The position numbers and the translations under genes are program-made. This document shows positions 1 to 13,993 of a stretch of DNA of 14,046 bases, piece by piece (the stretch's first letter is position 1; the number at the start of each line of letters is the position of its first letter). The notes under the pieces were generated by a model. It ran no database searches. It was given only the letters and a program-made list of their open reading frames with translations, and was not told the DNA's origin. The stretch is from an uncultured Collinsella sp. (GTDB lineage: Bacteria > Actinomycetota > Coriobacteriia > Coriobacteriales > Coriobacteriaceae), in contig URGY01000025.1 of the NCBI GenBank assembly GCA_900547505.1, positions 1-14,046 of the forward strand, written 5' to 3'.

Positions 1-47
1 GAGATGCAGCGTAGTCTCGTGGGCTCGGAGATGTGTATAAGAGACAG
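1..47 (+). other. Nextera adapter with index (assembly artefact)
   Basis: This is synthetic sequence. Bases 29-47 are the 19-bp Tn5 mosaic end AGATGTGTATAAGAGACAG, preceded at 14-28 by the Nextera read-2 stem GTCTCGTGGGCTCGG. Bases 6-13 (GCAGCGTA) sit where the i7 index goes, and 1-5 (GAGAT) match the end of the flow-cell primer. The reverse complement of the same index recurs at the other end of the contig. Any reading frame through here gives the familiar contaminant peptide containing VGSEMCIRDR. Genomic DNA starts at about 48. Confidence 0.98.
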
Positions 48-1089
48 GGATATCCGCCGCGATCGTGCGTTTGCGGTCGAGCGCGCTGCCCAGCACCAGG
101 CCCAGGCCCACCAGGGCGTTCTCGGGCGTGGTGACCATCTCGATGCGCTTGTACTCGCAGGTCACGGGCGCCTGCACGCCCAGCGGATTGGGTGCCAGCG
201 TGGACGGGTCCTCGCCGGCGGCGACGGCTGCGTCCATGCGGCGGCTCGCGGCACTCGGCTGCGACAGATAGCGCTCGTCCAAAAAGGCCAGCGCGCGGTC
301 CACGTCCAAGTCGCCGTAGAGCGTGATGTAGGAGTTGGAAGGATTGTAGTGGCGCGCATGCGTGTCCAGGAACTGCTCGTAGGTGAGCGCGGGAATCGCG
401 CGCGGGTCGCCGCCGCTCTCGTGCGCATAGGCGGTGTCGGGATAGAGCGCGGCGTTGACGGCGTCGTCCAGCACGCTCATGGGGTCGGACAGCGCGCCCT
501 TCATCTCGTTGAACACCACGCCGTTATAGCGTAGCGTGCCCTCGCGCAGGCTCGCGGAGCTGCCGCTGCCCTCGCCCTCGGCGCCCTCCGGCAGGTCCAG
601 CTCGTAGTGCCAGCCCTCCTGCTCAAAAATGGTGGGCTTGGTATAGATGGCCGGGTTGAACACCGCGTCCAGGTACACGTCCATCAGGTTGTACAGATCT
701 TGCTCGTTGGTGGTGGCGACAGGGTAGATGGTTTTGTCGGGGTAGGTCATGGCGTTGAGGAACGTCTGCATGGAGCTCTTGATTAGGTCGACAAACGGCT
801 CCTTGACGGGAAACTTGGCCGATCCGCACAGCACCGAGTGCTCAAGGATATGGAACACGCCGGTGGAATCGGCCGGCGGCGTCTTAAAGCCAATGGCAAA
901 AGCCTTGTTTTCGTCGTCGCACGCCAGGTACAGCAGGCGGGCGCCCGAGGCGGTGTGGCGCAGCACGTAGGCGTCCGAGTCGAGCTCGGGCACGGTCTCG
1001 CAGCGCTCGACGGCAAAACCGTGGCAGGTGGTGCCGGGCACCAGCAGCGCGGCGGCAGCGGCGCGCGGGTCGGTTGAGGTGGTGGGCAT
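48..1089 (-). CDS. Insulinase-family (M16C, PreP-like) zinc metallopeptidase, N-terminal part
   Basis: This is the first 347 codons of a peptidase; the rest lies beyond the contig end. The inverted zinc motif HxxEH is at residues 80-84 (HILEH), with E83 as the expected general base. The distal zinc ligand is probably E195 in FNEMKGALSDP, a signature shared with presequence proteases (M16C). Further family blocks are FLNAMTYPDKTIYPVA near 110-125 and EGWHYEL near 158-164. Family members are usually around 950-1000 residues and form a two-half chamber that degrades short peptides. There is no signal peptide, so it is probably cytoplasmic. A Gly/Ser/Glu-rich insertion at 169-178 separates the last two blocks. 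The ATG at 1089 has AAAGGAG seven bases upstream on the minus strand. It is transcribed away from the neighbouring GntR gene. Family assignment is firm; the physiological substrate is unknown. Confidence 0.93.
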
Positions 1090-1141
1090 ATGCAGTCTCC
1101 TTTGACGCCCCAGCGGGGGCGAATCGAGTCGAATCCTCGTG

Positions 1142-1147
1142 AGTATA
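1142..1147 (-). promoter_or_regulatory. Possible -10 element of the peptidase gene
   Basis: On the minus strand the hexamer reads TATACT (5 of 6 to TATAAT), about 50 bases upstream of the start codon. I see no convincing -35 hexamer 16-18 bases further upstream, so this is only a candidate. Confidence 0.3.
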
Positions 1148-1313
1148 CCCATATGGGGCCGCGGCTCTGCGGCGAACTGGAGACGATGTGGGTGGACTAA
1201 CCTAGCTAGGTTGATAACGAATGCCGCGGGTAGCCGCTGCACCCCGCTAAAGTGAAATAACACCCCGTTTACCGAATCATTTAGGAAATATATGGACTCC
1301 TAAAAAGTTCTAA

Positions 1314-1325
1314 TACAATATAAGT
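1314..1325 (+). promoter_or_regulatory. Possible -10 and operator element before the GntR gene
   Basis: TACAAT at 1314-1319 is a plausible -10, with a weak -35-like TGGACT at 1293-1298 (15-base spacer). The overlapping string ACAATATA (1315-1322) recurs exactly at 2190-2197 over the likely -10 of the PTS EIIA gene. That fits a shared operator for the locus regulator, including autoregulation. Both promoter and operator are inferred from position and similarity only. Confidence 0.35.
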
Positions 1326-1369
1326 CATCTATCTATAAGCTGCTGATTCCTTGTAAAGGTATGGTTGAT

Positions 1370-2074
1370 ATGGTTGAAGCAAATAGCGTTATCCCCCTGT
1401 ACAAACAGATTGTTCGTGCGCTTTCTGATTCGATCGCCAACGGCACGTACCGCCCGGGAGATAAGCTCCCGACCGAGGCGGAGCTCATCGAGCAATTTGG
1501 CGTGAGCCGAATAACGGTTCGCTCCGCAATTAAAGAAATGGAAGATGCTGGGCTTGTTGAGAGGGCCCGCGGCAAGGGCACGTTCGTTTCGTCGGACACA
1601 CAGATGTATGCCGCGGACGACCGTGAGAGCTTTACCCATTCGTGCCAGCTTGCTGGAAAACAGGCGTCTACCAGGGTTCTCGCAATGGGCTGGGACTTCC
1701 CAAGCCTGCGAGACGCGAAGTTCCTAGGCGTAGACGATACCCAAAAGGTATTGCGTAGTCGTCGTCTGCGCCTTGTGGATGACAAGCCCACGATGCTGGA
1801 AACCAATAGCTATTCCGCTGCGCTTTCTTTTTTGGAGCATGAATCCCTCGAGGATTCGCTGATGGCGGTACTCGATCGCCAGGGGATCAAGATGGGCCCC
1901 AACACGCGTACGCTCGAGGTCTGCTATGCGAGCGAGCTCGAAGCGACATACCTTAACGTGGAGCTGGACTCTGCGCTGCTTCTGTTTGTCGATAGACGTT
2001 ATGCTCCAAGCGGCGAGCCGCTTTTCATCTCCCGTCAGGTGTACTGCACCGAGCGACTGAAGTTCTATCTGTAA
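1370..2074 (+). CDS. GntR-family transcriptional regulator with UTRA domain
   Basis: This 234-residue protein is a DNA-binding repressor or activator of the GntR/HutC type. Residues 8-73 are a classic GntR winged helix (PLYKQI, GTYRPGDKLPTEAEL, VSRITVRSAI, LVERARGKGTFV). Residues of roughly 95-230 match the UTRA effector-binding fold, which in relatives binds phosphorylated sugars or similar small metabolites. I chose the ATG at 1370 because AAAGG (1355-1359) is ten bases ahead of it; the in-frame ATG at 1361 sits one base after that ribosome site. It precedes the PTS genes in the same direction but has its own terminator. FrlR of the E. coli fructoselysine operon is also GntR/UTRA, which fits the FrlB-like enzyme downstream. 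It probably controls the PTS locus and itself. Family is certain; effector and targets are inferred. Confidence 0.93.
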   Translation: MVEANSVIPLYKQIVRALSDSIANGTYRPGDKLPTEAELIEQFGVSRITVRSAIKEMEDAGLVERARGKGTFVSSDTQMYAADDRESFTHSCQLAGKQASTRVLAMGWDFPSLRDAKFLGVDDTQKVLRSRRLRLVDDKPTMLETNSYSAALSFLEHESLEDSLMAVLDRQGIKMGPNTRTLEVCYASELEATYLNVELDSALLLFVDRRYAPSGEPLFISRQVYCTERLKFYL

Positions 2075-2081
2075 GCAAGGG

Positions 2082-2111
2082 CGGCCGTTCTGTAAAAGGA
2101 GCGGCCGTTTT
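2082..2111 (+). terminator. Probable intrinsic terminator after the GntR gene
   Basis: A 10-bp stem (2082-2091 with 2098-2107, including two G-T pairs) has a six-base loop GTAAAA and is followed by TTTT at 2108-2111. The core of each arm is CGGCCG. It starts eight bases after the stop codon. The T run is short, so termination may be partial, leaving some read-through into the PTS genes. Confidence 0.6.
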
Positions 2112-2168
2112 ACCGACCAATTGTTACCGTTCGCGGAATTAGAGAATTAACGCACCGCAAAAAGGAAA

Positions 2169-2200
2169 TTGCTTATATACTTTGTTATGACAATATAGTA
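2169..2200 (+). promoter_or_regulatory. Promoter region with imperfect palindrome before PTS EIIA
   Basis: A 23-base imperfect inverted repeat spans 2178-2200. Its arms start TACTTTG and end ATAGTA, and 8 of 11 positions pair. It covers a likely -10 (TATAGT, 2194-2199); the best -35 candidate is TTGCTT at 2169-2174 with a long 19-base spacer. Placement of a palindrome over the -10 is typical of a repressor operator, and the nearest candidate repressor is the GntR protein encoded just upstream. Confidence 0.42.
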
Positions 2201-2223
2201 CGTCTTATTGATATTGGAGAACT

Positions 2224-2643
2224 ATGAATAAGATATTGCTAGCGAGTCATGGTTATCTCGCCCAAGGTATGAAAAGCTCTCTGGAGATTCTGATGGGCGC
2301 CAACGACCGAATCGAGTGTCTGTGCGCCTATGTCGATGACGACACGAGGGATGTCGCAGCGCTTATCGATGCTTGGATGGAGTCGAAGGATCCGGCCGAC
2401 ACGTGGTTTGTCGTAACTGACATCTTTGGCGGTTCCGTAAACAACGAGTTCATCCAGAGGCAGGCCGCCGGATCGTTTACGTTGATCGCCGGAATGAACT
2501 TGCCGCTGCTGGTGGAAATGGTTACACAGCTGGACTCCCTGGATGCGGACAAGGCCAAAGCCGCGGTCGAGGGATCGCGTTCGTTTATCCAGCTTTGCGA
2601 GGCGGCGGATATGCTCGCCGATGTCGAAGAAGAAGAGTTCTAG
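2224..2643 (+). CDS. PTS mannose/fructose/sorbose-family EIIA component
   Basis: This 139-residue soluble domain accepts phosphate from HPr and passes it to EIIB. The N-terminus (KILLASHGYLAQGM) carries the phosphorylated histidine H9 in SHG, and TDIFGGS at 65-71 is the conserved loop of the EIIA-Man fold (PF03610). Length is normal for a free-standing EIIA. GGAGA at 2216-2220 lies just upstream of the ATG. The acidic C-terminus (DVEEEEF) is unusual but unremarkable for a soluble domain. It opens the PTS set and is followed 62 bases later by EIIB, with which it is probably co-transcribed. In this PTS family A and B can be fused; here they are separate genes. The transported sugar cannot be read from this component. 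Confidence 0.95.
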   Translation: MNKILLASHGYLAQGMKSSLEILMGANDRIECLCAYVDDDTRDVAALIDAWMESKDPADTWFVVTDIFGGSVNNEFIQRQAAGSFTLIAGMNLPLLVEMVTQLDSLDADKAKAAVEGSRSFIQLCEAADMLADVEEEEF

Positions 2644-2705
2644 CTCAAGCTTCAACGAATAATTCAACCCTGTCATTACCTTTATTACGCGCGGAGATGG
2701 TTACG

Positions 2706-3179
2706 ATGATTAAGCTTACGAGGGTCGATTACCGATTGATTCACGGCCAGGTCGCCATGTCCTGGACGCATGCGCTGGATGTAGATTGCATCCTGTGTGC
2801 CAGCGACGCCGTGGCAAAAGACGACATGAGAAAAGCCGCTTTGAGGCTGGCTCGTCCCAATGGCGTGAAGCTCGTCATAAAAGACGTAAACGCGGCCATC
2901 GAGGCGCTCAACAGCGGCGTCACCGACAAGTATTCGCTGTTTATCATTGTCGAGACGATCGAGGATGCCTATCGCCTTGCTAAGGGTTGCAAAGACATCA
3001 AGGAGATCAATTTGGGCGGAACTCGAAAGTCTCCCGAGACCACGCTTCATCCGACCCCCGCGATCTTTGCGACCGAAACCGATGCCGAGCATATCCAAGA
3101 GCTTGTCAACGATGGCGTGGTTATCGAAATCCGTCAGGTTCCCAATGACTCAAAGGTATTTGCCAAGGACGTTTTCTAG
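2706..3179 (+). CDS. PTS mannose/fructose/sorbose-family EIIB component
   Basis: This 157-residue cytoplasmic phosphotransfer domain (PF03830) moves phosphate from EIIA to the incoming sugar. The family signature DYRLIHGQV is at residues 8-16, with H13 the phosphorylated histidine. GGTRKSPETTLHPTPAIF further on matches the conserved ligand loop. I chose the ATG at 2706 because GGAG (2693-2696) is nine bases upstream and homologues begin shortly before the DxRLIHGQ motif. An in-frame ATG at 2697 overlaps the ribosome site, and a much longer frame opening at 2595 would run into the EIIA gene. A terminator and a new promoter follow, so the A/B pair may form one transcript and SIS/C/D another. 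Confidence 0.95.
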   Translation: MIKLTRVDYRLIHGQVAMSWTHALDVDCILCASDAVAKDDMRKAALRLARPNGVKLVIKDVNAAIEALNSGVTDKYSLFIIVETIEDAYRLAKGCKDIKEINLGGTRKSPETTLHPTPAIFATETDAEHIQELVNDGVVIEIRQVPNDSKVFAKDVF

Positions 3180-3229
3180 CTGGAAACATGCCATTGTCTA
3201 GCATTTATTAACTAGATCCTCCTTTCTTT

Positions 3230-3264
3230 AGCCCGTCGTTCATTTGATCGGCGGGCTTTTTATT
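3230..3264 (+). terminator. Intrinsic terminator between EIIB and the SIS gene
   Basis: AGCCCGTCG (3230-3238) pairs with CGGCGGGCT (3249-3257) as a 9-bp stem with one G-T pair and a ten-base loop, followed by TTTTTATT. This is a good factor-independent terminator placed inside the PTS gene set, about 50 bases after the EIIB stop. Confidence 0.85.
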
Positions 3265-3295
3265 AAAGAAAAATCAAAAAAATCTGAAATAGTTC

Positions 3296-3323
3296 TTGCA
3301 TAGTTAGTTATATAAAGTATTAT
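3296..3323 (+). promoter_or_regulatory. Probable promoter of the SIS-EIIC-EIID unit
   Basis: TTGCAT (3296-3301) and TATTAT (3318-3323) are separated by 16 bases in a strongly AT-rich stretch directly after the terminator. Aligned on the ACGTC that follows in both cases, the region resembles the EIIA promoter region (10 of 18 bases). Initiation here would explain why a terminator precedes the gene. Confidence 0.45.
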
Positions 3324-3332
3324 AACGTCATG

Positions 3333-3353
3333 GGATGAATGAAGGGTTCATCC
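3333..3353 (+). promoter_or_regulatory. Leader hairpin before the SIS gene
   Basis: GGATGAA (3333-3339) and TTCATCC (3347-3353) form a perfect 7-bp inverted repeat with a seven-base loop. It lies between the likely promoter and the ribosome site AGGAG (3363-3367), so it would form a small stem in the 5' leader of the mRNA. A role in mRNA stability or as an operator are both possible. Confidence 0.4.
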
Positions 3354-3373
3354 AAGTGAGTTAGGAGTAAGGG

Positions 3374-4408
3374 ATGTTCAATTTCGATGAGCCTCGTTAC
3401 GAGAAGGTTGTGAGCGATGCCCTCGCTCTCCGTCCTCAGATTGAGGCTGCCGTGGACAAGGTCTGCGAGCAGGGTTATTCCAACATCTTCTTCATCGGCT
3501 GCGGCGGCACCTGGGCCCACACGCTCCCGATGAAGTATTGGGTCGAGACCACCACGGCCGACGTCGATGTCCACTGCGAGATTGCCGCTGAGTTCCTCGC
3601 ATGCCCGCCCAAGACCTTCAACAAGGACTCTGTCTGCGTCTTCTCCACCCGTACCGGCACCACCCCCGAGATCATTGAGGCTGCCAAGTTCTGCCAGGAG
3701 CAGGGCGCCCGCACGCTGATGTATGTCTCCAACGACAACACCCCGGCCACCGAGTACGCCGATTACAAGTTCTTCAGCTTCGCCGAGGACGACGTCCTGT
3801 GCGAGGCCATCTACACCTACCAGATCACGCTGGTCGCCCGCTTCCTCAAGAACGCCGGCGCCTTCCCCAAGTACGACACCTTCATGGAGGAGTTCGGCAA
3901 CATCGCTCCGTACCTCATCAAGGCCAAGGACGCTCAGGACGAGCGCTGCGCCGCCATGGCCGAGGACTTCAAGGACACCGATTACCACATGGTGATTGGC
4001 TCCGGCATGCTCTGGGGTGAGGCCTACGACTACGCCATGTGCATCCTCGAGGAGATGCAGTGGATCAAGACCAAGTCTATCCACGCCGCCGAGTTCTTCC
4101 ACGGCACCATCGAGCTGTGCGAGGAGGGCACGAGCCTCATCATGCTCTACGGCGAGGACGACACCCGTAAGCTCATGGACCGCGTGGACAACTTCACCCA
4201 CATGCTCGCCGACGAGAAGGGCGTTAACGTCCGCGTGAACAAGTTTGACACCGCCAAGGTCGAGCTGCCGTTCAGCGACCCTGAGTTCCGCAAGATCGTC
4301 TCCCCGATGGTTACCTACACCATCACCGAACGTCTGAGCTGCCATCTCGAGCACGTCCGTAACCACCCGCTCACCACGCGTCGTTACTATCACCAGATGA
4401 ACTACTAA
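3374..4408 (+). CDS. SIS-domain sugar-phosphate enzyme, FrlB-like deglycase
   Basis: This 344-residue protein has two SIS domains in the manner of AgaS/FrlB/GlmS-isomerase proteins (COG2222). Visible features are the glycine-rich loop IGCGGT at 41-46, the phosphate-binding Ser/Thr loop STRTGTTPE at 91-99, and AAEFFHG at 238-244, whose E240 and H243 match the catalytic region of FrlB-type deglycases. The C-terminus RRYYHQMNY resembles the RRYY end of E. coli FrlB, and the length (FrlB about 340) agrees. FrlB-type enzymes split 6-phosphofructoselysine to glucose-6-phosphate and lysine. The position between PTS EIIB and EIIC says the substrate is the PTS product. AGGAG is six bases before the ATG. 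Codons are strikingly C- or G-ending compared with the PTS genes, suggesting high expression. SIS family is certain; deglycase is likely; the amine partner is unknown. Confidence 0.88.
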   Translation: MFNFDEPRYEKVVSDALALRPQIEAAVDKVCEQGYSNIFFIGCGGTWAHTLPMKYWVETTTADVDVHCEIAAEFLACPPKTFNKDSVCVFSTRTGTTPEIIEAAKFCQEQGARTLMYVSNDNTPATEYADYKFFSFAEDDVLCEAIYTYQITLVARFLKNAGAFPKYDTFMEEFGNIAPYLIKAKDAQDERCAAMAEDFKDTDYHMVIGSGMLWGEAYDYAMCILEEMQWIKTKSIHAAEFFHGTIELCEEGTSLIMLYGEDDTRKLMDRVDNFTHMLADEKGVNVRVNKFDTAKVELPFSDPEFRKIVSPMVTYTITERLSCHLEHVRNHPLTTRRYYHQMNY

Positions 4409-4429
4409 TCCTCTCAAATTGCTTCGGTT

Positions 4430-4468
4430 GTCTGCAGGCGAGCTGCACAGAATGCCTCGCCTGCAGAC
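4430..4468 (+). promoter_or_regulatory. Perfect 13-bp intercistronic hairpin without T run
   Basis: GTCTGCAGGCGAG (4430-4442) and its exact reverse complement (4456-4468) flank a 13-base loop. No T run follows, so it is not a normal intrinsic terminator. It starts 22 bases after the SIS stop and ends 21 bases before the EIIC start. Such stems often protect the upstream message from 3' exonucleases and so let an enzyme be made in excess over membrane components; that role is inferred here. Confidence 0.8.
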
Positions 4469-4489
4469 CTGTTCCTGGGGTTGATCGAA

Positions 4490-5263
4490 ATGGTTGTCCA
4501 GTATCTTCTAATTGCACTGGTCGCATTTATTGCGTCCATGGACGAGCAATTATTTGGCATTACGATGCTTGGCCGTCCGCTGTTTACGAGCCTGTTTGTC
4601 GGCCTGATTCTTGGCGATGTCCAGCAGGGCGTTATCGTCGGCGCTGCTTTGGAGTCCATGTTCATGGGCGCCATCATGGTCGGCGCGGCGGTTCCTCCCG
4701 AGGTCTATGCCTCCGGCGTGCTTGGCTGCGCGTTTGCCGTCATTACGGGTACGGGCACGGCAACTGCCGTCGCGCTCGCCCTTCCTGTCTCCGTCTTCCT
4801 TCAGGTGTGGCGCAACTTCTGCTACGCCGTTCCGGGTGCTTTTGCCTGTAAGAAGATTGAGACCGCTCTGGCAAATCGCGATCTTGCCAAGGCGAATCTG
4901 TACCATCTGACCATCGTGCCGCTGTCGATTGGCATTCCGTCTGCACTGCTGGTGTTTGGCTCGCTGTTCTTTGGTGCCGACCTCATCAACAATGCGCTCA
5001 ACGCGATTCCGCAGTTTGTGATGGACGGCCTCAACGTTGCGTCCGGCGTAATGGTCTGCATCGGCTTCGCTCTTCTTATTAGGACCATGGGCGACAACAA
5101 GCTTCTTCCTTGGCTGTTCATCGGCTTCATTATGGTCATTTACCTCAAGATGGACGTGGTCGGCGTCGCCGCAGCTGCCATTTGTGTCGCGTTGCTCCTG
5201 GCCTTCCGCGAGGGCTCGTCCGGTCCGCAGGCGGTTGCTGCAGATGAAGAGAAGGACTTCTAA
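4490..5263 (+). CDS. PTS mannose/fructose/sorbose-family EIIC membrane component
   Basis: This 257-residue polytopic membrane protein forms the sugar channel with EIID. Most of the sequence is hydrophobic helices. The family block GDVQQGVIVGAALE (42-55) followed by GAAVPPE is characteristic of EIIC-Man (PF03609). The C-terminus is short, acidic and cytoplasmic (ADEEKDF). I chose the ATG at 4490, which has TGGGG nine bases upstream; an in-frame TTG at 4481 directly abuts that site and is less likely. The stop overlaps the start of the next gene (TAATG), so EIIC and EIID are translationally coupled. It follows a strong hairpin that may set its expression below that of the SIS enzyme. Confidence 0.95.
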   Translation: MVVQYLLIALVAFIASMDEQLFGITMLGRPLFTSLFVGLILGDVQQGVIVGAALESMFMGAIMVGAAVPPEVYASGVLGCAFAVITGTGTATAVALALPVSVFLQVWRNFCYAVPGAFACKKIETALANRDLAKANLYHLTIVPLSIGIPSALLVFGSLFFGADLINNALNAIPQFVMDGLNVASGVMVCIGFALLIRTMGDNKLLPWLFIGFIMVIYLKMDVVGVAAAAICVALLLAFREGSSGPQAVAADEEKDF

Positions 5264-6111
5264 TGGCTACCCAGAACACCGACCTCAAAGAGGCCAAGAA
5301 GGATGCGATTATGACTCCCGATATGTATCGGAGCATGTTCCTTCGCCAGTTTACGAGCCAGTGCTCGCAGTCGTACGACAAGATGATGGCAATGGGCTTC
5401 ATGTACACCATTCAGAAGCCCCTGCGAAAGATCTATCCCAACGACGACGATTACTATGCGGCGCTCGATCGCCATACTGAGTTCTTTAACATCACGCCTC
5501 ATGTGCTTCCGTTTGTAGCCGGCCTAACGGTTTCGATGGAAGAGCAGGCGGCTGCCGATAAGAACTTCGACACGTCCTCGATTAACGCCATGAAGGTCGG
5601 CCTCATGGGACCGCTTTCCGGCATTGGCGATTCGTTCTACTGGGGTACGTTCCGCGTGGTCGCTGCTGGCATTGGTATTGGTATCGCTTCGACGGGCAAC
5701 CCGCTCGGCCCCATCGTGTACGCGCTCATTTACTCCGTGATTAACTTTGCAACGCGTATCGTCGCAGCCCATCTGGGGTACGACCTGGGAACCAAGTTTT
5801 TGGAGCAGTCCGAAGAGAACAACCTTATGTCTCGCATGACGCATGCTGCCGGTGTCCTCGGAATGACCGTTATCGGCGCCATGATTGCGGCACAGGTCTC
5901 ACTGTCCACTGCTTTGACCTTTGACGTGGGTGGTTCGGAGATTGTCCTGCAGGATCTGTTCGATTCGATCTTCCCCGGTCTGCTGCCCTTGCTGGCAACC
6001 TTTGCCTGCGTCGCCCTGTACAAAAGGGGCGTCAAGACCATTTGGATCATCTTGGGCATCTTTGCAGTCTGCATCATCGGAACGGGCTTGGGAGTGTTCG
6101 CGGCGGCGTAA
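5263..6111 (+). CDS. PTS mannose/fructose/sorbose-family EIID membrane component
   Basis: This 282-residue protein is the second membrane subunit of the mannose-type permease (PF03613), a component found only in this PTS family. The hallmark GPLSGIGDSFYWGTFR starts at residue 116, and the N-terminal part (MFLRQFTSQCSQSYDKMMAMGFMYTI) matches the amphipathic region typical of EIID. Hydrophobic segments lie near 125-175 and 190-215, and two more C-terminal helices span about 235-282. Its ATG overlaps the EIIC stop by one base. With this gene the permease is complete (A, B, C and D), so the locus should be able to transport and phosphorylate its sugar. A strong terminator follows. Confidence 0.95.
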   Translation: MATQNTDLKEAKKDAIMTPDMYRSMFLRQFTSQCSQSYDKMMAMGFMYTIQKPLRKIYPNDDDYYAALDRHTEFFNITPHVLPFVAGLTVSMEEQAAADKNFDTSSINAMKVGLMGPLSGIGDSFYWGTFRVVAAGIGIGIASTGNPLGPIVYALIYSVINFATRIVAAHLGYDLGTKFLEQSEENNLMSRMTHAAGVLGMTVIGAMIAAQVSLSTALTFDVGGSEIVLQDLFDSIFPGLLPLLATFACVALYKRGVKTIWIILGIFAVCIIGTGLGVFAAA

Positions 6112-6156
6112 TGTTGACTGCTATGCTCGCGCGCTGGATAACTAACTGACCGTTTG

Positions 6157-6193
6157 AAAACGGGGCTCGGCGTAAGGCCGGCCCCGTTTTTTG
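6157..6193 (+). terminator. Strong intrinsic terminator ending the PTS operon
   Basis: AAAACGGGGC (6157-6166) pairs with GCCCCGTTTT (6181-6190). An inner CGGC/GCCG stem extends it apart from one unpaired T, with a five-base loop, and T residues continue to 6192. The A run ahead of the stem could also let it act on transcripts from the opposite strand. Confidence 0.92.
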
Positions 6194-6342
6194 TTTGAGG
6201 GATTTTACGACCGTCCAATAGTCCAGGCTCGTCCATCACTCACGTATCTCTCATCTCTCATTCGTCACTAATACGAGAGATAACAGAAAGATGAGAGATA
6301 AATATGAGAGATAACTGAGCAGCAAAGAGACAAGAAATCACG

Positions 6343-6357
6343 GTATTGTATCAATAC
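6343..6357 (+). repeat. Short perfect inverted repeat inside the array
   Basis: GTATTG and CAATAC flank the three bases TAT. The repeat lies between the two copies of the 51-bp direct repeat, just ahead of the best promoter candidate, and is unlike the GAGAGATAA units, so a second factor could bind here. Confidence 0.4.
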
Positions 6358-6360
6358 TGA

Positions 6361-6389
6361 TTGTTCTACCAGCAAAAACATGTTTAAAT
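6361..6389 (+). promoter_or_regulatory. Possible promoter of the AlbA_2 regulator gene
   Basis: TTGTTC (6361-6366) and TTAAAT (6384-6389) are separated by 17 bases, and a TG one base before the -10 gives an extended -10 form. It lies between the two repeat blocks. Initiation here would place the second block within the transcript leader, and the first block upstream of the promoter, a layout suited to autorepression. Confidence 0.35.
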
Positions 6390-6541
6390 GAAACAGATGG
6401 TAGATATCTTATCTCTCATCTTTCACTCATCTCTAATACGAGAGATAACAGAGAGACAAGAGATAATTACGAGAGATAACTGAGAGACGAAGGAAATCTA
6501 TTCGCGGCATTCTCCGCCGGACCGAGCGAAAGGACGTGCAG

Positions 6542-8008
6542 ATGAACGAGAACGAACTGATCGGTCTGCTCGAGTCTTTAAGGCGCATGGGCTCGGACGA
6601 TCTTAGCGTCGAGGTCAAGGAGAGCGCCACGACGCTTTCTCGCGACGTATGGGAAACGGTTAGCGCATTCGCGAATACCGCCGGCGGAATTATCGTGCTC
6701 GGCGTGAGCGAGCGCGCGGGCTTTGTCCCGGTTGAGGACTTTGAGACCGAGAAGGTGCTCAACCAATTTGTCGCAGGCATGGGTGATGCCGGCGGTCGCG
6801 GAAAACTGGCCAATCCGCCCAAATACACTATTGAGCGCGTGGAGCTTCGGGGCACCGTGGTTCTCGTTATCACGATTGAGGAGCTCGACCCGTCGAGCAA
6901 GCCCTGCTATGTAATAGAACGCGGCGCCCAGGGCGGCAGCTACAAGCGCATTGATGACAAAGACGTGCCACTTTCATCGACCGAGGTCTTGGCACTGTCG
7001 TCATACGAGCGGACGAGTCCTAGCGATCGCGATGCAGTGCCCGGCGCGGTTGCAGGCGATCTTGACGAGGCACTGGTCGATCGCACGATAGAGCGTGCTT
7101 TCTCGCTGACACCTCGGGCAATGCGCGGCGCGCTGGACAAGAAAACGAAGCTGGAGCGCCTGAATTTCCTCGACTCCCAGGGCAAAGTTACTAAGGCCGG
7201 GCTCCTGGCTGCGGGTGCCTATCCTCAGCAGTTCTATCCTAAGCTCTTTATCGATGTGGCGGTCTATGCCGGAACGCAGAAGGGCGCGGCGGGGTCGTTG
7301 AGGTTCATGGACCGTACGATCTGCGAGGGAACGTTGGGCGAAATGATCTCGGATGCCGTCGCGGCAGTCGCCAAGAATTTGCGGCGAACCTCGACGATCC
7401 AAGGCGTCTCGCGTGTCGACTCGCTGGAGATTCCCGAGGAGGTCCTGCGCGAGGCAATCGCCAACGCCGTAATCCACCGAGAATACGGAGATCGGTTCTG
7501 TGGGCAGTCGATCGCTGTTGACGTCTTTGATGACCGTATCGAAGTGACGAACCCCGGCGGCCTATACGGAGGAAAGACTCGCGAGAACTTGTTTGACGGC
7601 AGCTCCCGGTGCCGCAACGCGACGCTCATGAAACTCATGTCGATTGTTCCGCTGCCGGATGGCGCAGGTTCGCCGGCTGAGGGCAATGGCTCGGGCATTC
7701 CGATGATGATCGACGCCATGTGTGCTCATGGTTTGGCCGAGCCCCTGTTCTGCCCGGGATTCGATCGGTTCAAAGTGGTTCTCTATCGCTCAAAGGTCGA
7801 GCCGGTCGACCACGGCGGTGACTTAATTGTGGCGGCACTTAAGCGTTGCGGTGAGCTGGGTACGCGCGAGTTGGCGGAGCACACAGGGCTCACAATTTCC
7901 CAGGTTAGGTCGCGCGTCAACACACTCATTGCTCAAGGCGAGCTTGAGCCCACAGCGCCGGCGACGAGTCGCAACCGCAAGTATCGACTGTCGGAGCGTG
8001 CGGAATAA
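6542..8008 (+). CDS. AlbA_2 (Schlafen-type) / HATPase / winged-helix regulator
   Basis: This 488-residue protein has the three-part layout of a large, poorly understood family of putative transcriptional regulators. The N-terminal AlbA_2 domain shows VEVKES (23-28) and FANTAGGIIVLGV (43-55). A GHKL-type ATP-binding module (HATPase_c_4) shows AIANAVIHREY with N308, DDRIEVTNPGGL (330-341) and the glycine loop EGNGSGIP (380-387). The C-terminus (about 425-485) looks like a winged helix (ELGTRELAEHTGLTISQVRSRVNTLIAQGEL). It is presumably cytoplasmic and DNA-binding. The ATG at 6542 has AAAGGA seven bases upstream; the in-frame GTG at 6536 is too close to that site. The gene stands alone behind an array of GAGAGATAA repeats, which suggests autoregulation. 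Domain calls are strong; the signal it senses is unknown. Confidence 0.9.
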   Translation: MNENELIGLLESLRRMGSDDLSVEVKESATTLSRDVWETVSAFANTAGGIIVLGVSERAGFVPVEDFETEKVLNQFVAGMGDAGGRGKLANPPKYTIERVELRGTVVLVITIEELDPSSKPCYVIERGAQGGSYKRIDDKDVPLSSTEVLALSSYERTSPSDRDAVPGAVAGDLDEALVDRTIERAFSLTPRAMRGALDKKTKLERLNFLDSQGKVTKAGLLAAGAYPQQFYPKLFIDVAVYAGTQKGAAGSLRFMDRTICEGTLGEMISDAVAAVAKNLRRTSTIQGVSRVDSLEIPEEVLREAIANAVIHREYGDRFCGQSIAVDVFDDRIEVTNPGGLYGGKTRENLFDGSSRCRNATLMKLMSIVPLPDGAGSPAEGNGSGIPMMIDAMCAHGLAEPLFCPGFDRFKVVLYRSKVEPVDHGGDLIVAALKRCGELGTRELAEHTGLTISQVRSRVNTLIAQGELEPTAPATSRNRKYRLSERAE

Positions 8009-8108
8009 ATGCGCCAGCGGACGAGGTGACCCAATAATCGACTCTCGATTGGCGCCCGCTAAGGTAAGGCGGTTGTTGCCCAGTCGACGGCGAAGTTAAA
8101 AATCCGGT

Positions 8109-8600
8109 TTACGCTGGCATAGTCCCGAACCCATCCATCAAGAACAGCCTAAGAACCAGTTTGATGACATTTCCCGGTTTGATTTCTGCCGCGCCAAAGA
8201 CGTGGCGCTCGGCGAGCTCGCTGCAGTATGCGTAGATGTCGCGGATAAGGTCCGCGCCCGAAAGCGTAAACATGTAGCCCGCGTCCGAAAGCGCATTGGG
8301 CGCGGCGGGCAACTTGGCCATGTGGCAGAACGTTTGCAGGTCGGGCGCCATAACATTCTGGTAGTCGAGGTGGCCGCTGGCATCCTGTGCGGCAAGCTCC
8401 AATTGGCGCACAAAATCCAGCGCCGCCGCTAACACAAAGCTCGGCGTAGGCGCATTGACGTCCTGAGTGGTCGCCACAAGCCTGCCCGCCGCTTGCGTGA
8501 CAAGCCAAGCGACCTCGCGCTGGCAACGCACGGCCTTGCGCGTAACCGGCTTGATGGACGAAGAAGAAACGCTCCCCTTAGGCGGATTCGAAGCAGCCAT
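8109..8600 (-). CDS. Hypothetical protein, function not recognised
   Basis: I do not recognise this 163-residue protein. It has no signal peptide, no membrane helix and no cysteine pairs. After a basic, Ser-rich N-terminus (about 1-30) it looks like a soluble alpha-helical protein, with RQLELAAQDASGHLDYQNVMAPDLQTFCHMAKLPAA in the middle and DLIRDIYAYCSELAERHVFG towards the end. The start is well supported: GGGAGGG lies a few bases before the ATG on the minus strand. It is convergent with the AlbA_2 regulator (100 bases apart) and divergent from the HNH gene. G+C content is typical of the window. It is probably a real gene because of the ribosome site and the absence of a better frame. Confidence 0.72.
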   Translation of the reverse strand: MAASNPPKGSVSSSSIKPVTRKAVRCQREVAWLVTQAAGRLVATTQDVNAPTPSFVLAAALDFVRQLELAAQDASGHLDYQNVMAPDLQTFCHMAKLPAAPNALSDAGYMFTLSGADLIRDIYAYCSELAERHVFGAAEIKPGNVIKLVLRLFLMDGFGTMPA

Positions 8601-8642
8601 AAGACCCTCCCATGAACAATCCGGCCCAACAAGCCTGGATGA

Positions 8643-8663
8643 AACACGTGTTACATCAGTATA
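8643..8663 (-). promoter_or_regulatory. Possible -10 and palindrome before the 8109-8600 gene
   Basis: On the minus strand TATACT (8663-8658) is a good -10 hexamer about 60 bases ahead of the start. Just downstream is the perfect 10-base palindrome AACACGTGTT (8643-8652). No convincing -35 is seen. Confidence 0.3.
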
Positions 8664-8814
8664 CAGGGGAGTGGGATAGCGGGGTACGAGCGCGCCAGCG
8701 GCAAACCGAGAGCATCAACGATGTGCCGATCGCGAATAAGATCTCGTAATACTTGACTTCCGGCCATATTATTGAGGGGCATGACTCGCGTTCGTATGGT
8801 TGTAGGTGCTGGCG

Positions 8815-9897
8815 ATGAACGACATTGACCTTGCTGTTCCGTTGATGGATGGACCAAGCTATGACCGTGCCTGCAGTCTCGTGCCTTCCGAATACGTTGA
8901 GGCATGGGAGTGGTTTCTGGGTGAGGAGCAGCGCGGCGGCGTTTGGACCAGCCTTCCGCACCGCACCAAGGAAGATAGCCCTCAGTATCAGTATCGTTTG
9001 AGAATTGGCGCGGACTTCTTTCCCGTAACGCGGGATTCAGGGATCTTCTGGCCGGGCCAGGATCGGGTGAAGCAAGATCCCAATAAGATCTTTGCGCTTT
9101 CGGTCCATAACTCTAAAAAGAGCTTTTACACCGATGTTCCTCCGCTCTATTTGGATGACGGTACGTGGGTCATTAAGTATTCGGTTCAAGCGCCAGGCGT
9201 CGTTGGTTCTCGAGACCAGAATTACAACCGTAAAATGCTCAACTGCATGGAATATGGCGTTCCAGTTGGAGTCATATTTGCAACCGAGGTGGGCTATAAG
9301 GTGCTCGGCCTTGCGTTTGTTGAACGGTTTGAGCCCGAAAACGGCTGGTTTGTTCTGCATGGTCCCGTTCATAAAGGCGGGCCTGATCCTCGTTTTGCGT
9401 CCGACATGAGCTATCTGAAGCACATGCCAGCCGACATTGAGTTTGCCGGACAGAGTGCGACCGATGACGAAAAAGTTCGCTATGCGTTGAGACGCGAGCG
9501 ATTGGGGCAGCAATGGTTCCGCAAGCAGCTCATTGCCGCCTATGATGGTCGCTGCGCGGTGTCGGGTTGTGGGGTTAACGAGGCACTGGAGGCTGCACAT
9601 ATCGAGAATTACTCGGGACCCAAATCGCAGGTTGCCAGCAACGGCATTCTGCTTCGGCGCGACTTTCATGCTCTATTCGATGCTCATCTGATTTCGTTTG
9701 AGCCTGTTTGCGGCGAATATCGACTGTGCGGATCGTACCTGCTGGATAAGACCGACTACGCTTCCTTTGCAGGTGCGACGCTAAGGCAGCCGAATGAGCG
9801 TCAGTGGCGACCCAATGCGGTGTTTCTCGAGGCCCATCGCATTGAGTTTGATCGCTCGGAAAAGAAGCGTGAAAAGGCGGGGCTTCTGCCGTATTAG
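8815..9897 (+). CDS. HNH endonuclease with possible SRA/PUA-like N-terminal domain
   Basis: This is a 360-residue protein. The C-terminal half has a clear HNH nuclease: CAVSGC (247-252), then H262 in EAAHI, N276 in NGILLRRD and H285 in FHALFD. This arrangement is typical of restriction-like and HNH_2-type nucleases. The N-terminal 220 residues contain a block (about 120-165) with DDGTWVIKYSVQAPG, DQNYNRKMLNCMEYGVPVGVI and a following YKVLGLAFVERF. Its order resembles the SRA/YDG-type modified-base-binding fold (DQ, then N and a short loop ending in PVxVI). I regard that as a hypothesis. SRA-HNH fusions are known modification-dependent restriction enzymes. AGGTG lies before the ATG at 8815. 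The gene is followed by a small zinc-ribbon gene. Nuclease domain is strong; substrate is unknown. Confidence 0.85.
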   Translation: MNDIDLAVPLMDGPSYDRACSLVPSEYVEAWEWFLGEEQRGGVWTSLPHRTKEDSPQYQYRLRIGADFFPVTRDSGIFWPGQDRVKQDPNKIFALSVHNSKKSFYTDVPPLYLDDGTWVIKYSVQAPGVVGSRDQNYNRKMLNCMEYGVPVGVIFATEVGYKVLGLAFVERFEPENGWFVLHGPVHKGGPDPRFASDMSYLKHMPADIEFAGQSATDDEKVRYALRRERLGQQWFRKQLIAAYDGRCAVSGCGVNEALEAAHIENYSGPKSQVASNGILLRRDFHALFDAHLISFEPVCGEYRLCGSYLLDKTDYASFAGATLRQPNERQWRPNAVFLEAHRIEFDRSEKKREKAGLLPY

Positions 9898-10019
9898 CGT
9901 ATTTGGCTTTGGCGGTCTTTTACGATCGTGTTGTTTGATCGGATCGCGTGGCGATGCAATCTCGCGCCCGTCCGCCGGTGCATGCTCTTCCTGATTTGTA
10001 TAGCGAGAGAGGAGCGCGT

Positions 10020-10304
10020 GTGAGCTGGCGAGGCGATATTGCGATGGGGAAGTACGGAAAACTGCCGTGTGCCCTTATAGACAACAATATGTTTCCGGGC
10101 GTAGAGGTTGATTGCGGGTCATTTGCCGTCGCCTGTCCTTGTTGCGGCTCGCAAATACCGTGTCTCGATATTCGGTTCATCGATGCGCGTGACAGACTCA
10201 GCGACGAAGTGAGAAAACGGACAGGCGTTCATATGCCGGTGTATCCGGAGAAATGCCCTGTTTGTGGCCTCGATATCGTGTACGACGTCGGCGACGAGGG
10301 ATAG
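10020..10304 (+). CDS. Small zinc-ribbon protein
   Basis: This 94-residue protein has two CxxC pairs, C39-C42 (CPCCG) and C79-C82 (CPVCG), spaced as in a split zinc ribbon, with additional cysteines at 17, 32, 41 and 48. I do not recognise a specific family. I chose the GTG start at 10020 because GGAG (10011-10014) is five bases upstream. An open frame reaching back to 9948 would add a 24-residue extension without a ribosome site, and an ATG at 10044 is a shorter alternative. It lies 122 bases after the HNH nuclease gene in the same direction and could be co-transcribed. Its 3' end faces the DUF5710 gene. Zinc binding is inferred from the cysteines; a nucleic-acid or protein-binding adaptor role is possible. 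Confidence 0.65.
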   Translation: MSWRGDIAMGKYGKLPCALIDNNMFPGVEVDCGSFAVACPCCGSQIPCLDIRFIDARDRLSDEVRKRTGVHMPVYPEKCPVCGLDIVYDVGDEG

Positions 10305-10310
10305 GCGATG

Positions 10311-10342
10311 CGGAGGAGCTGGCTGTGAAGGCTTCTCCGTTT
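10311..10342 (+). terminator. Hairpin between the convergent zinc-ribbon and DUF5710 genes
   Basis: CGGAGGAGC (10311-10319) pairs with GCTTCTCCG (10331-10339) with one G-T pair and an 11-base loop, followed by only TTTC. The T run is weak, so termination may be partial. It occupies almost the whole gap between the two stop codons. Confidence 0.5.
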
Positions 10343-11029
10343 CTACAAATAAACCCCCTCACCGAGCTTCTTGTGGAACTCGGCGTGATGGTCGCGTGCC
10401 CAGGTAAAGAGTGCCTGGTCAAAGTCGGTGCGCGTGGCCGGGACGCCAAAGACGCCGGCAACTTCGACGCGCACAAACTCCAGTGCCGGCAGCTTGTTGA
10501 TGGCAGTGAGGGCAAATGGGGACGAGGGCTCCTCGAACAGATAGCGGCTGCCTTGCAGCGCGTCGCAACTGGTGCACGTGTTGCCGAGCGACGGGGCTTT
10601 GGAGGCTCGCGCGCCTACGGGCTTGTAGCCGCAGCGCTTATGAAGGTAGTCGCGGATCTCGCCCGGCACGCAGCCAAGAGCGGGCACGATGGCGAGTGCG
10701 TTAGCGTTGGCCGTGTCGATGGCAATGTGCCCGGCTTCGTTGGGCGCGTGCGCGATGGCGATGCTCTCGTCGTTATCGGCTCGATAGGGAATGCCGAAGG
10801 CCGCGACCGAGGTCTCTTTGTGACACTTCCAGCACTCGCGCTTGCCCAGTACTAGATATATATACGGCGCTGAGGGGTCGGATCGGTCAACACCGGGCAG
10901 CCACTCGGCAAAGGGCTCGGGGTTGACGCCGCTGGGTACATACCAGATCTTCTTGGTCCGGTCCCATTTGGCGCCCAGCGCCTTGGCTTCTTCTTTGTGC
11001 GAAAAGGGGACATCGAGCTCGGTGCGCAT
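10343..11029 (-). CDS. DUF5710-domain protein with two CxxC pairs
   Basis: This 228-residue protein begins with a DUF5710 segment (residues 4-35, LDVPFSHKEEAKALGAKWDRTKKIWYVPSG), a short domain found in many phage, plasmid and DNA-metabolism proteins, often next to topoisomerase- or primase-like modules. C66-C69 (CWKC) and C152-C155 (CTSC, followed by DALQGSRYLFEE) probably form one zinc site around a middle domain of unknown fold. I use the ATG at 11029 because AAGGAG lies five bases upstream on the minus strand and the DUF5710 match starts right there; a longer open frame to 11233 has no support. It is convergent with the zinc-ribbon gene. DUF5710 assignment is confident; the role is unknown. 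Confidence 0.82.
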   Translation of the reverse strand: MRTELDVPFSHKEEAKALGAKWDRTKKIWYVPSGVNPEPFAEWLPGVDRSDPSAPYIYLVLGKRECWKCHKETSVAAFGIPYRADNDESIAIAHAPNEAGHIAIDTANANALAIVPALGCVPGEIRDYLHKRCGYKPVGARASKAPSLGNTCTSCDALQGSRYLFEEPSSPFALTAINKLPALEFVRVEVAGVFGVPATRTDFDQALFTWARDHHAEFHKKLGEGVYL

Positions 11030-11210
11030 GGCGGCTCCTTGGTGCTGCAGGTGCAAGTGGCTCAAGGATACCGCAGGGCGCAGACATCGCGGCGTTTTGC
11101 CGAGAAGCTGCGGTGCGGACTGATTGGTTATGCCGATGGATAGATCGACAAGTAGATGGTCGGCATTTGGCCAGTTGGGCGGTTGGAGCTGCCAGCGGAT
11201 TTGGCGACAT

Positions 11211-11246
11211 AAAACAAAACAGCCCAGAGACATAGCCTCTGAGCTG
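11211..11246 (-). terminator. Intrinsic terminator of tRNA-Val
   Basis: On the minus strand CAGCTCAGAG (11246-11237) pairs with CTCTGGGCTG (11229-11220), a 10-bp stem with one G-T pair and a seven-base loop, followed by TTTTGTTTT. It begins nine bases after the tRNA CCA end. Confidence 0.92.
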
Positions 11247-11254
11247 CGAACATT

Positions 11255-11329
11255 TGGTGGGCGTTAGAAGATTTGAACTTCTGACCTCTTCCGTGTCAGG
11301 GAAGCGCTCTCCCCCTGAGCTAAACGCCC
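11255..11329 (-). tRNA. tRNA-Val (anticodon GAC), CCA encoded
   Basis: The minus strand folds into a full cloverleaf. The acceptor is GGGCGTT with AACGCCC; the D arm is GCTC/GAGC; the anticodon stem CTTCC/GGAAG holds the loop CTGACAC, with GAC at 11297-11295; the T arm is AGAAG/CTTCT with loop TTCAAAT. Discriminator A and genome-encoded CCA (11255-11257 on the plus strand read TGG) complete it. It decodes GUC and GUU valine codons. Promoter and terminator are both close, so it is a single-gene transcript. Confidence 0.97.
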
Positions 11330-11358
11330 GATCAAGGGTGCGCAAGTGCGCAAGGGAT

Positions 11359-11387
11359 AATATAACGGAGCCTGAACTCGGTGGCAA
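11359..11387 (-). promoter_or_regulatory. Sigma-70-type promoter of tRNA-Val
   Basis: On the minus strand TTGCCA (11387-11382) is separated by exactly 17 bases from TATATT (11364-11359), each matching consensus at 5 of 6 positions. Transcription would start about 20-25 bases before the mature tRNA 5' end. Confidence 0.75.
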
Positions 11388-11526
11388 GAACATTTTTAAA
11401 AATCGCTTACATTGTGGAATTCGGAGGCTTTGTCATATCCATTTCAAAAGAGTCTGCTGCCGCGATTTGGCTGTCGACTAATGCAAGGCCATTGCGGTAT
11501 CGAGCTATGGAAAGACGCCTGCGGAA

Positions 11527-11549
11527 TTGTCCTACCGATAAGCGGACAA
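11527..11549 (+). repeat. Short inverted repeat before the DMT transporter
   Basis: TTGTCC (11527-11532) and GGACAA (11544-11549) form a 6-bp inverted repeat with an 11-base spacer, 70 bases before the transporter start. It could be an operator. The remaining sequence from 11388 to 11618 shows no clear promoter, gene or terminator. Confidence 0.3.
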
Positions 11550-11618
11550 GCCTCCAGCTGGTGACTTCGCCGTGGTAAGGTAAGCCGAATTGCTTCCAGA
11601 CTGTTTCGGGGGAGTGGA

Positions 11619-12641
11619 ATGAGCAAAGAGTGTGTCGAGCAGGTCGAAGGTGCAGAGGCTTCGGTGCCGATGACCGATATATCGAACATTGATGTGCCCG
11701 AGGGCACCGACGAGCTCAGCCGTAGCACCCGCCGCGCTTGGCGCGAGCGCCTTAACGATGCGTCGTCGCGCAAGATGATCACGGGCGTCTTGGCTACGCT
11801 GGTGGGCGGTTCGTTTTGGGGCTTCTCGGGCACCAGCGCGAGCTTTCTGTTCGATACCTACCACGTCGATACCTTGTGGCTTATGAGCGTGCGTCAGATT
11901 CTCGCCGGTCTACTCTTTATGGCCGTGGTTGTTACGCGCGACCGCGAGCGCCTGATTAAGCTCTGGACCACACCCGCCGATCGCAAGCAGCTGCTGCTCT
12001 TTACCGCCTTTGGCCTGCTGTTCAACCAGTTTTGCTATCTTTCGGCCGTGCGCCTGACGAACGCCGGAACCGCGACGGTGCTCCAGTGCCTGCAGCTCGT
12101 TATCATCATGGGCTACACCTGCGCGATCGATCGCCGCATGCCGCGTACTCGCGAAGTCATCGGCATTGGCCTGGCTCTGGGTGGAACCTTTTTAATCGCC
12201 ACCGGCGGCGACCCCACCAGCCTGAATATCTCGCCGCTTGGCCTGGCAGCAGGTCTTATGTGTGCGGTCAGCGCCGCGTGTATGGCGGTGATTCCCGCCA
12301 AGATCCTGCCCGAATACGGCAGCCCCATCGTCACGGGCTCGGCAATGCTCACGGCGGGCGTGATCTCATGTGTCTTCGTGCAGCCCTGGGCGCATATGCC
12401 GGCACTCGACGCTGCCGGCGTCGAGGCGCTCGCGGTGTTCGTGGTTATCGGCTCGTTTTTTGCTTACATGCTCTATATGCAGGGCGTTAAGGACATCGGC
12501 TCGGTGCGTGCGAGTCTCATCGGAACCGTGGAGCCCGTCTCGGCGACCATCACCAGCGCCGTTATGCTGGGCACGGTGTTTTTGCCGACCGACCTTATCG
12601 GCTTTGCCATGATCATCGTGATGATGTTCCTCACGGTGTAG
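11619..12641 (+). CDS. DMT-superfamily (EamA) transporter
   Basis: This 340-residue membrane permease has two EamA repeats. After a hydrophilic, acidic and basic N-terminus (about 1-50, longer than usual), ten hydrophobic helices follow. Repeat 1 begins GVLATLVGGSFWGFSGTSASFL and includes LTNAGTATVLQCLQLVIIMGY; repeat 2 includes LGLAAGLMCAVSAACMAVIPAKIL and ends VRASLIGTVEPVSATITSAVMLGTVFLP, the usual final EamA signature. Family members export metabolites such as amino acids, or import small molecules; the substrate cannot be read from sequence. GGAG (11611-11614) is four bases before the chosen ATG. The protein ends immediately after the last helix (MFLTV), with none of the cytoplasmic tail common in relatives. 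It stands alone between tRNA-Val and the DUF4012 gene. Confidence 0.92.
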   Translation: MSKECVEQVEGAEASVPMTDISNIDVPEGTDELSRSTRRAWRERLNDASSRKMITGVLATLVGGSFWGFSGTSASFLFDTYHVDTLWLMSVRQILAGLLFMAVVVTRDRERLIKLWTTPADRKQLLLFTAFGLLFNQFCYLSAVRLTNAGTATVLQCLQLVIIMGYTCAIDRRMPRTREVIGIGLALGGTFLIATGGDPTSLNISPLGLAAGLMCAVSAACMAVIPAKILPEYGSPIVTGSAMLTAGVISCVFVQPWAHMPALDAAGVEALAVFVVIGSFFAYMLYMQGVKDIGSVRASLIGTVEPVSATITSAVMLGTVFLPTDLIGFAMIIVMMFLTV

Positions 12642-12735
12642 CTGGCGCCGCTGCCAAGACGGAAAAGGTGTTGTGCCGCATTTTCGCCAATTGATGTCCG
12701 TGTCTGGAGTTTAGCTGTCGATGCTCAAAATGCCA

Positions 12736-12741
12736 TAAACT
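12736..12741 (+). promoter_or_regulatory. Possible -10 element before the DUF4012 gene
   Basis: TAAACT lies 49 bases ahead of the start codon in the most AT-rich part of the intergenic gap. No clear -35 hexamer is seen at the right distance. Confidence 0.25.
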
Positions 12742-12790
12742 AGTAACGTTATGGACTTTTTCATTGCGACTCAATTGCGAGGATTTCTTT

Positions 12791-13993
12791 ATGGCTGGTA
12801 ATCACTTTAAGGGCAGCGATAGCGGCCGTCCTGCAGTTCCGCCGCGTCCGAACGGGGCTGGTAAGGCTGGCACGCCGGGCGGCGCTGGACAGGGCGGTTC
12901 CGGTAAGCGCGTGTCCCCGGGCGAGACGGCGATGTTTACCGCTCTGTACGAGCAGTCTCAAAAGGCAAAAAAGACCGGCCGTGCAAGAGGGAATGTCTTT
13001 GCGGGCGGTGCAACCTCCACGTCGCAGCCGAGCGGGGCTCCTTCGGTACCCGCGAACAACGCAGGTGCTGCCAACGCCGCGAATGCCGCCGGCAACGTTA
13101 ATGCCGACAAGGCCGCCAACAATACTCCCTCTGCCGGTGGCGCGGGGCTTACGGGTAACCTTGGCACGATTTACACCGGCGCCTCCGAGACTGGCACGTT
13201 CGCCCGCCTGGATGATAGCGGTGCCGAGTTTGCGGGCTCGGGTTCCAAGGAAGATTATTACGATTTTGGCTTGAACTACGGTAGCGACGCTTCGTCGAGT
13301 TCGACCTCTGACGGTCTGGTCCGTCATCGCCATCGCAAGGGCGAGCGCAAAAAGCGTCACACCGGCGCCATTATTGCCGCTGTAGCCGCGGTGCTTCTCG
13401 TTGCGCTTGGCGCAAGCGGCTTTATGCTGCTTAACTCGGCAAAGACCGTAAAGAGCGAAGCGAAGGAGGCTGTCGAGATCGTCGGTGGCCTTAAGGACAA
13501 GGTCACGTCGGGCGATTTTTCGACGCTGCCTGACGACGCGAAGAAGATCGATGAACTCTGCGACAGCATGAAGGCGGAGACTTCGAGCCCGCTGTGGACG
13601 GCGGCTTCGTTTATCCCGGTGTATGGCAGTGACATCAACGCAGCCCGCACCATGATTGATGCCCTGTCCGATGTCTCGAGCAACGCGCTGGTTCCCATGG
13701 CCGACAACCTTTCGCAGGCCACGCCCGGCAAGCTGTTCCAGGACGGCATGATTAACGTGTCCGCGCTGCAGGCGGTCGCCGATTCGCTTTCCAGCAGCTC
13801 AAAGGTGTTCAAGAGCGCCAACGAGAAGGTCCAGGGCATTGGCGATACTCATATTTCCCAGGTGACCGAGCTGGTCGATAAGGCCAAGGACGGCTTTGCT
13901 ACCCTCAACGGTGCGGTCGACGCGGCGGAGAAGGTCGCCCCCGTCCTTCCCCAGATGCTCGGCGCCAACGGCCAGACGCGCAACTACCTTATG
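12791..13993 (+). CDS. DUF4012-domain membrane protein, N-terminal part
   Basis: The first 401 codons are genomic; the frame then enters adapter at 13994. Residues 1-175 are a low-complexity cytoplasmic region rich in Gly, Ala, Ser, Asn and Pro, ending in a basic stretch (RHRHRKGERKKRH, about 178-190). One membrane helix follows (about 193-214). The outer part matches DUF4012: WTAASFIPVYGSDINAARTMIDAL, then APVLPQMLGANGQTRNYLM, just short of the usual YLxLxQN block. Such proteins are common in actinobacteria, often near cell-envelope genes; the activity is not established. GAGGA (12779-12783) is seven bases before the ATG. Residues beyond M401 (LSLIHISEPT...) are adapter translation and must not be annotated. 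Confidence 0.87.

Follow-up and report, generated by a model that had tools for sequence, protein, structure and literature searches.

An array of repeated short sites before a Schlafen-type regulator gene of Collinsella: a probable autoregulatory operator written in its own word

What is a dense cluster of short repeats doing directly in front of a gene whose product combines a Schlafen-type AlbA_2 domain, a GHKL ATPase domain and a winged helix in a single chain? The question is raised by a stretch of 14,046 nucleotides from an uncultured Collinsella sp. (contig URGY01000025.1 of assembly GCA_900547505.1), called here the window, in which the nonamer GAGAGATAA occurs 13 times with at most one mismatch, against 1.95 matches expected and with none of 200 dinucleotide shuffles reaching 13. 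Ten of these matches, six exact and four with one mismatch, fall within positions 6244-6479. Our computational analysis leads us to read this array as the autoregulatory operator of the downstream gene, bound by the gene's own product and most likely repressing it, a reading to which we assign a probability of about 0.78. The sites and their grouping are as follows:

6275, 6293, 6306, 6440 and 6471, forward strand: exact GAGAGATAA sites
6409, reverse strand: exact site
6244 and 6251, reverse strand: one-mismatch sites
6451 and 6458, forward strand: one-mismatch sites
6244..6319, no strand: array module 1 (reverse sites 6244-6252 and 6251-6259; exact forward sites 6275-6283, 6293-6301 and 6306-6314)
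6320..6408, no strand: inter-module region, with 61 of 94 columns invariant in an alignment of 17 upstream regions
6409..6484, no strand: array module 2 (exact reverse site 6409-6417; exact forward sites 6440-6448 and 6471-6479; one-mismatch forward sites 6451-6459 and 6458-6466)

The two modules of about 75 base pairs (bp), 6245-6319 and 6410-6484, are 88% identical and offset by 165 bp. In module 1 the reverse sites are gene-distal and the forward sites gene-proximal, a layout found again in module 2, and inverted repeats are present within the module. An earlier note on this DNA had counted at least six exact copies, five forward and one reverse, and had placed them in the intergenic gap just before the regulator; the coordinates agree on both points, the gap measuring 424 bp from the end of a phosphotransferase system (PTS) IID gene at 6111 to the regulator start (GTG at 6536 or ATG at 6542), with the array ending about 50 bp 5' of the gene. 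Its count of three one-mismatch copies falls one short, and the block that it saw duplicated 165 bp apart keeps that offset, its size being 75 bp rather than 51. Between the modules lies a 15-bp dyad, GTATTG-TAT-CAATAC (6343-6357), near-conserved across the 17 aligned upstream regions, which may be a site for some other factor. A candidate promoter, picked by eye only, is also found there (TTGTTC at 6361-6366, 17 bp, TTAAAT at 6384-6389); because a promoter scan of 6100-6560 returned no sigma-70-like site, this placement is a guess.

Do array and gene belong together? The window matches Collinsella aerofaciens best (ortholog L001, at a protein identity of 99%), and the earlier note's proposal to look upstream of orthologous genes gives a clear result: every one of the 17 close orthologous loci, which are 91-99% identical, carries the array, with 3-6 exact sites each and a module-to-module distance of 164-167 bp. 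The adjoining PTS operon is gone from the site in 12 of the 16 informative loci (L004, where the contig starts too near, was left out of this count), with array and gene still joined. Nor is the nonamer scattered, a result that the earlier note would have counted against the link, in the five relatives' genomes searched: its 38 exact copies comprise 22 in this array, 5 in paralogue-type arrays and 11 elsewhere (a reversed control word gives 8), and 20 of 21 close direct pairs lie in this array, the remaining one before a paralogue. On these comparisons the tie between array and regulator gene appears well supported. The inverted pattern ATCTCTC-N2-30-GAGAGAT, considered as a pointer to a second target of the regulator, was set aside: its 17 distinct places in the five genomes are this array (11), places with the paralogue's word (4, one of which, G001:C42, was judged by letters only) or a stretch of coding sequence shared by G003 and G005 (2, both within an open reading frame).

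The word is private to its gene, that is, it is not clustered elsewhere in the searched genomes, and same-genome paralogues use others. The words differ in all 11 same-genome paralogue pairs checked (9 genomes): a member's own word was counted 3-10 times before its gene and the other's 0-3 times, with weak arrays in L063 and marginally in L065 and L118 among the paired members. Three further words, searched as direct pairs in seven other genomes, were found before the matching gene only (3/3, 4/4 and 6/6). Over the 12 genomes combined, the tested words gave 34 matches as direct pairs, all of them before family members.

How far does this arrangement extend beyond Collinsella? Homologues came from a first scan and from a search of 296 Coriobacteriia genomes, 182 of which gave a match; 80 stretches were fetched from the latter, leaving aside close Collinsella orthologues collected before, some of the partial matches and some that were interrupted by internal stops. 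Of the 113 loci scored, 76 representatives were kept at 80% identity, and the most frequent 8-mer within 200 bp was counted and its copy number compared with 60 dinucleotide shuffles, 45 other promoters from ten of the same loci serving as controls (loci L143-L172 were read by eye, without scoring). Among homologues of at least 140 bits, 33 of 59 were unreached by any shuffle and 43 of 59 were reached by three at most, compared with 0/45 and 3/45 for the control promoters. The most repetitive of these three control regions (L024, minus strand, offset 3907) itself precedes a gene that, by sequence, is apparently of the same architecture; the 200 bp before it hold a direct repeat of about 20 bp, two-fold and of the TGTCAAGATTAATCA type. 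Up to 10 short sites per 200 bp are found before homologues, and arrays extend down to about 28-30% identity. The words differ from member to member:

L079: TTAGAGAGAT
L023: TGACTGAGATAA
L020: GAGTGATGAGT
L067: TTGTCAGTGACA
L080: CGTCGCAG
L095: GTGGAAAGTT
L106: TAGGGAACT
L107: TTACGGTA
L120 and L122: TTTGTACTT

The earlier note had hoped for the binding code of the family. The arrays do open the question of its DNA specificity; as a code, GAGAGATAA is not family-wide. In single-module homologues, reading by eye places a -10-like TATAMT inside or next to the array (L020, L021, L026 and L079). The L021 gene has array copies on both sides, as the upstream array recurs behind it, inverted and nearly identical, at about 7568-7620. 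Outside Coriobacteriia, 12 of 42 phage, plasmid and viral-contig loci were unreached by 60 shuffles, four of them being near-identical copies. The phage- or prophage-borne homologues L199, L201, L202, L214, L216 and L224 show 11-bp tandem repeats before the gene, which in L201, L202, L214 and L224 lie, judged by eye, in two gapped blocks like those of the window; the loci L201 and L202 also start, again judged by eye, next to what looks like a tRNA end sequence. A viral-contig scan with one phage-borne homologue found nothing. Gene 38 of a Gordonia phage, a homologue at first considered as that phage's immunity repressor, was given up in this role, which the annotation assigns to gene 44.

The spacing of the sites bears on the nucleic acid that is read. 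Across the 43 loci passing at three shuffles or fewer, 42 of which have usable pairs, same-strand distances cluster at 11-12, 20-21, 30-33 and 40-42 bp. The best locus-weighted period is 10.25 bp, with a vector strength of 0.52 that none of 1000 randomisations reached (null maximum 0.29); opposite-strand pairs give a strength of 0.18. With a period of 10.25 bp, one face of double-stranded DNA is therefore probably what is read, and the phasing fits protein copies lying along that face. The cooperative binding suggested earlier is compatible with such phasing, binding itself being what we infer.

What protein would occupy these sites? The gene and its domains are:

6536..8008, forward strand: regulator gene, 490 amino acids, described from Pfam domains, an AlphaFold model and structure matches
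residues 22-146: SLFN_AlbA_2 (PF04326, 52 bits against a cut-off of 25.3)
residues 323-416: HATPase_c_4, of GHKL type (PF13749, 74.5 bits against a cut-off of 26)
residues about 425-490: C-terminal winged helix, from the structural match of residues 422-490

The regulator thus has all three domains of the AlbA_2/HATPase_c_4/winged-helix (DIP2311-like) family. Its model (mean predicted local distance difference test score 84.4) matches over the whole chain 3LMM, the DIP2311 protein of Corynebacterium diphtheriae, a structural-genomics entry described as of unknown function in the portion of the source available (PMC8780604), and Pfam names PF22168 "transcriptional regulator DIP2311-like". Residues 422-490 match winged helices of MarR/IclR type, some solved with DNA (TtgV, HpaR), as well as Z-alpha domains. 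GHKL-like residues such as E306, N310, G341, G383, G385 and G387 are invariant in 45 aligned sequences, which suggests that the regulator is a predicted ATP binder. In the same alignment E26 is invariant and D21 and E59 are kept at 90% or more; these are at most putative counterparts of the three-carboxylate active site of SLFN13, E205/E210/D248 (PMC5862951). Existing labels vary: NCBI names the AlbA_2 protein "RNA-binding domain-containing protein", PADLOC returns weak pAgo/SIR2 matches only, and NCBIfam gives no match for the regulator. The window protein and two phage-borne homologues match phrog_12156 over their full length; its label, "DNA helicase", is probably misleading: a Pfam scan found no helicase domain in the window protein, the name can probably be traced to the "RecG C-terminal" label of HATPase_c_4, and the members matched here are AlbA_2/HATPase/winged-helix proteins.

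Several results weigh against an operator bound by the gene's own protein. Not all homologues have an array: 16 of the 59 at or above 140 bits were reached by more than three shuffles, and of the 17 more distant ones only 1 was unreached and 2 were reached by three or fewer. The 140-bit BLAST cut was set after the upstream sequences had been read; without it the figures become 34/76 unreached and 45/76 reached by at most three. Some best words, as in L081 and L100, are likely due to chance. A cruder statistic on 7-mer pairs, with 47/59 homologues at no more than 1 in 100 shuffles, also picked up 13/66 controls, and was replaced by the single-word copy count because hairpins such as terminators also score. 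Within the modules of the close orthologues, 58 of the 87 site columns are invariant, as are 38 of the 65 remaining columns; the sites are thus not clearly better conserved than their surroundings and do not stand out at this distance as under purifying selection. The array has also outlived its gene in part: ortholog L017 retains it without the 5' part of the gene, and in genome G004 the last 32 residues alone of a paralogue are matched (L181, 2108-2262), directly after a retained array. Lastly, in a Mantel test on 43 loci, motif similarity followed domain identity with Spearman coefficients of 0.31 for HATPase, 0.27 for AlbA_2, 0.23 for the middle region and 0.21 for the winged helix, and the top 50 word-associated columns, scattered across AlbA_2, middle and HATPase, include 4 of 62 winged-helix columns against 21 of 129 in AlbA_2. 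Clade structure confounds both tests. The attempt to single out the winged helix by covariation as the reader of the word failed, as it is the least correlated domain; either it or AlbA_2 may be the reader.

Could the repeats work as RNA instead, folded into a 5' leader to which the AlbA_2 domain binds? That domain is a nucleic-acid domain of the Schlafen ribonucleases (RNases) (PMC5862951), the fold matches of the model include SLFN11, SLFN13 and SLFN14, and the inverted repeats within a module would suit such a leader. An RNA, however, has no need of a 10.25-bp helical period, and several homologues have almost exclusively direct repeats as sites (8/8 in L086, 8/8 in L120, 5/5 in L106), so that no hairpins would form; the sole Rfam match of the window is a tRNA away from the array. 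We consider a leader of this kind very unlikely. Still a little less probable is that the sites serve another regulator, for example one of the adjoining PTS operon, and stand before this gene by chance. The array does lie 3' of that operon, which has its own GntR gene; against this, array and gene remain together in the 12 orthologous loci without the PTS stretch, and homologues in other contexts carry arrays of other words. The two partial losses, in L017 and the G004 paralogue, where an array stays beside a damaged gene, do not decide for or against this explanation. A role as iteron- or centromere-like sites for replication or partition of mobile elements, with the protein as maintenance factor, is put just as low: the window locus lies on the chromosome and is retained at 17 Collinsella loci, and a Pfam scan of 10 window proteins turned up no Rep, ParA or TubZ domain.

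Around this locus the window varies between strains. The segment at about 1188-6208 holds a sugar operon with a GntR regulator, a mannose-type PTS and a SIS domain, and by comparison with the orthologous loci reads as strain-variable cargo beside the conserved regulator. An HNH_2 endonuclease gene at 8806-9897, which matches phosphorothioate-DNA restriction enzymes weakly, is likewise in a strain-variable part. Matches to orthologous genomes span 44 to 13993, leaving 1-43 and 13994-14046 unaligned; these ends are probable adapter contamination, their translations resembling what we take to be adapter read-through peptides of metagenome assemblies.

Winged-helix repressors that control their own genes through several operator sites are known, among them those of MarR/IclR type. 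An autoregulatory operator array is accordingly of a known kind, and the C-terminal winged helix, the repeated sites before the own gene and the helical phasing are all shared with these repressors. The present family departs from them in its many short sites, which each genome reserves almost wholly for one gene, in a chain that also includes a GHKL ATPase and an AlbA_2 domain, and in a word varying from member to member; what is unusual is this own-word, multi-site form and its recurrence across a Schlafen-type family. A 2026 paper describes, in the part available, bacterial Schlafen - minimal histidine kinase - winged helix-turn-helix proteins as RNases and backup effectors of BREX in phage defence (PMC12839542). 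Judged by that description their domain architecture is the same; they are treated there as effectors, with no operator mentioned in that part, and the window protein is at most a putative RNase. In the literature searched, with subscription journals and preprints outside the search, no operator for the AlbA_2/HATPase/winged-helix family was found, including in the available parts of PMC12839542, PMC7641849, PMC8780604, PMC6299218 and PMC5862951.

How might such an operator work? The regulator would bind the short sites, probably as several copies side by side on one DNA face, and cooperative binding to its own array would control, most likely repress, its own transcription. The nucleotide state of the GHKL ATPase domain may gate DNA binding, and the two modules may act jointly; if they flank the promoter, this would suit spreading or the looping that the earlier note suggested, with a distance between them that shifts by a few bases among orthologues. 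A bolder scheme, which we think doubtful, would make bacterial Schlafen proteins of this architecture DNA-docked, autorepressed effectors: the phased private array would hold a row of protein on its own promoter and keep both gene and RNase activity low, release by a signal read by the GHKL domain, or by loss or change of the array DNA in phage infection, would switch both on, and private words would prevent cross-talk of paralogues and incoming elements.

For the family as a whole, the arrays predict which DNA sites dozens of its proteins would bind, in a widespread group labelled helicase, RNA-binding protein or RNase. As each array has its own word, the question of the family's DNA target becomes answerable by a simple gel-shift matrix, and the arrays offer natural sets of mutually distinct repressor-operator pairs. 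They also suggest that Schlafen-type effectors near BREX systems may have a transcriptional control of their own.
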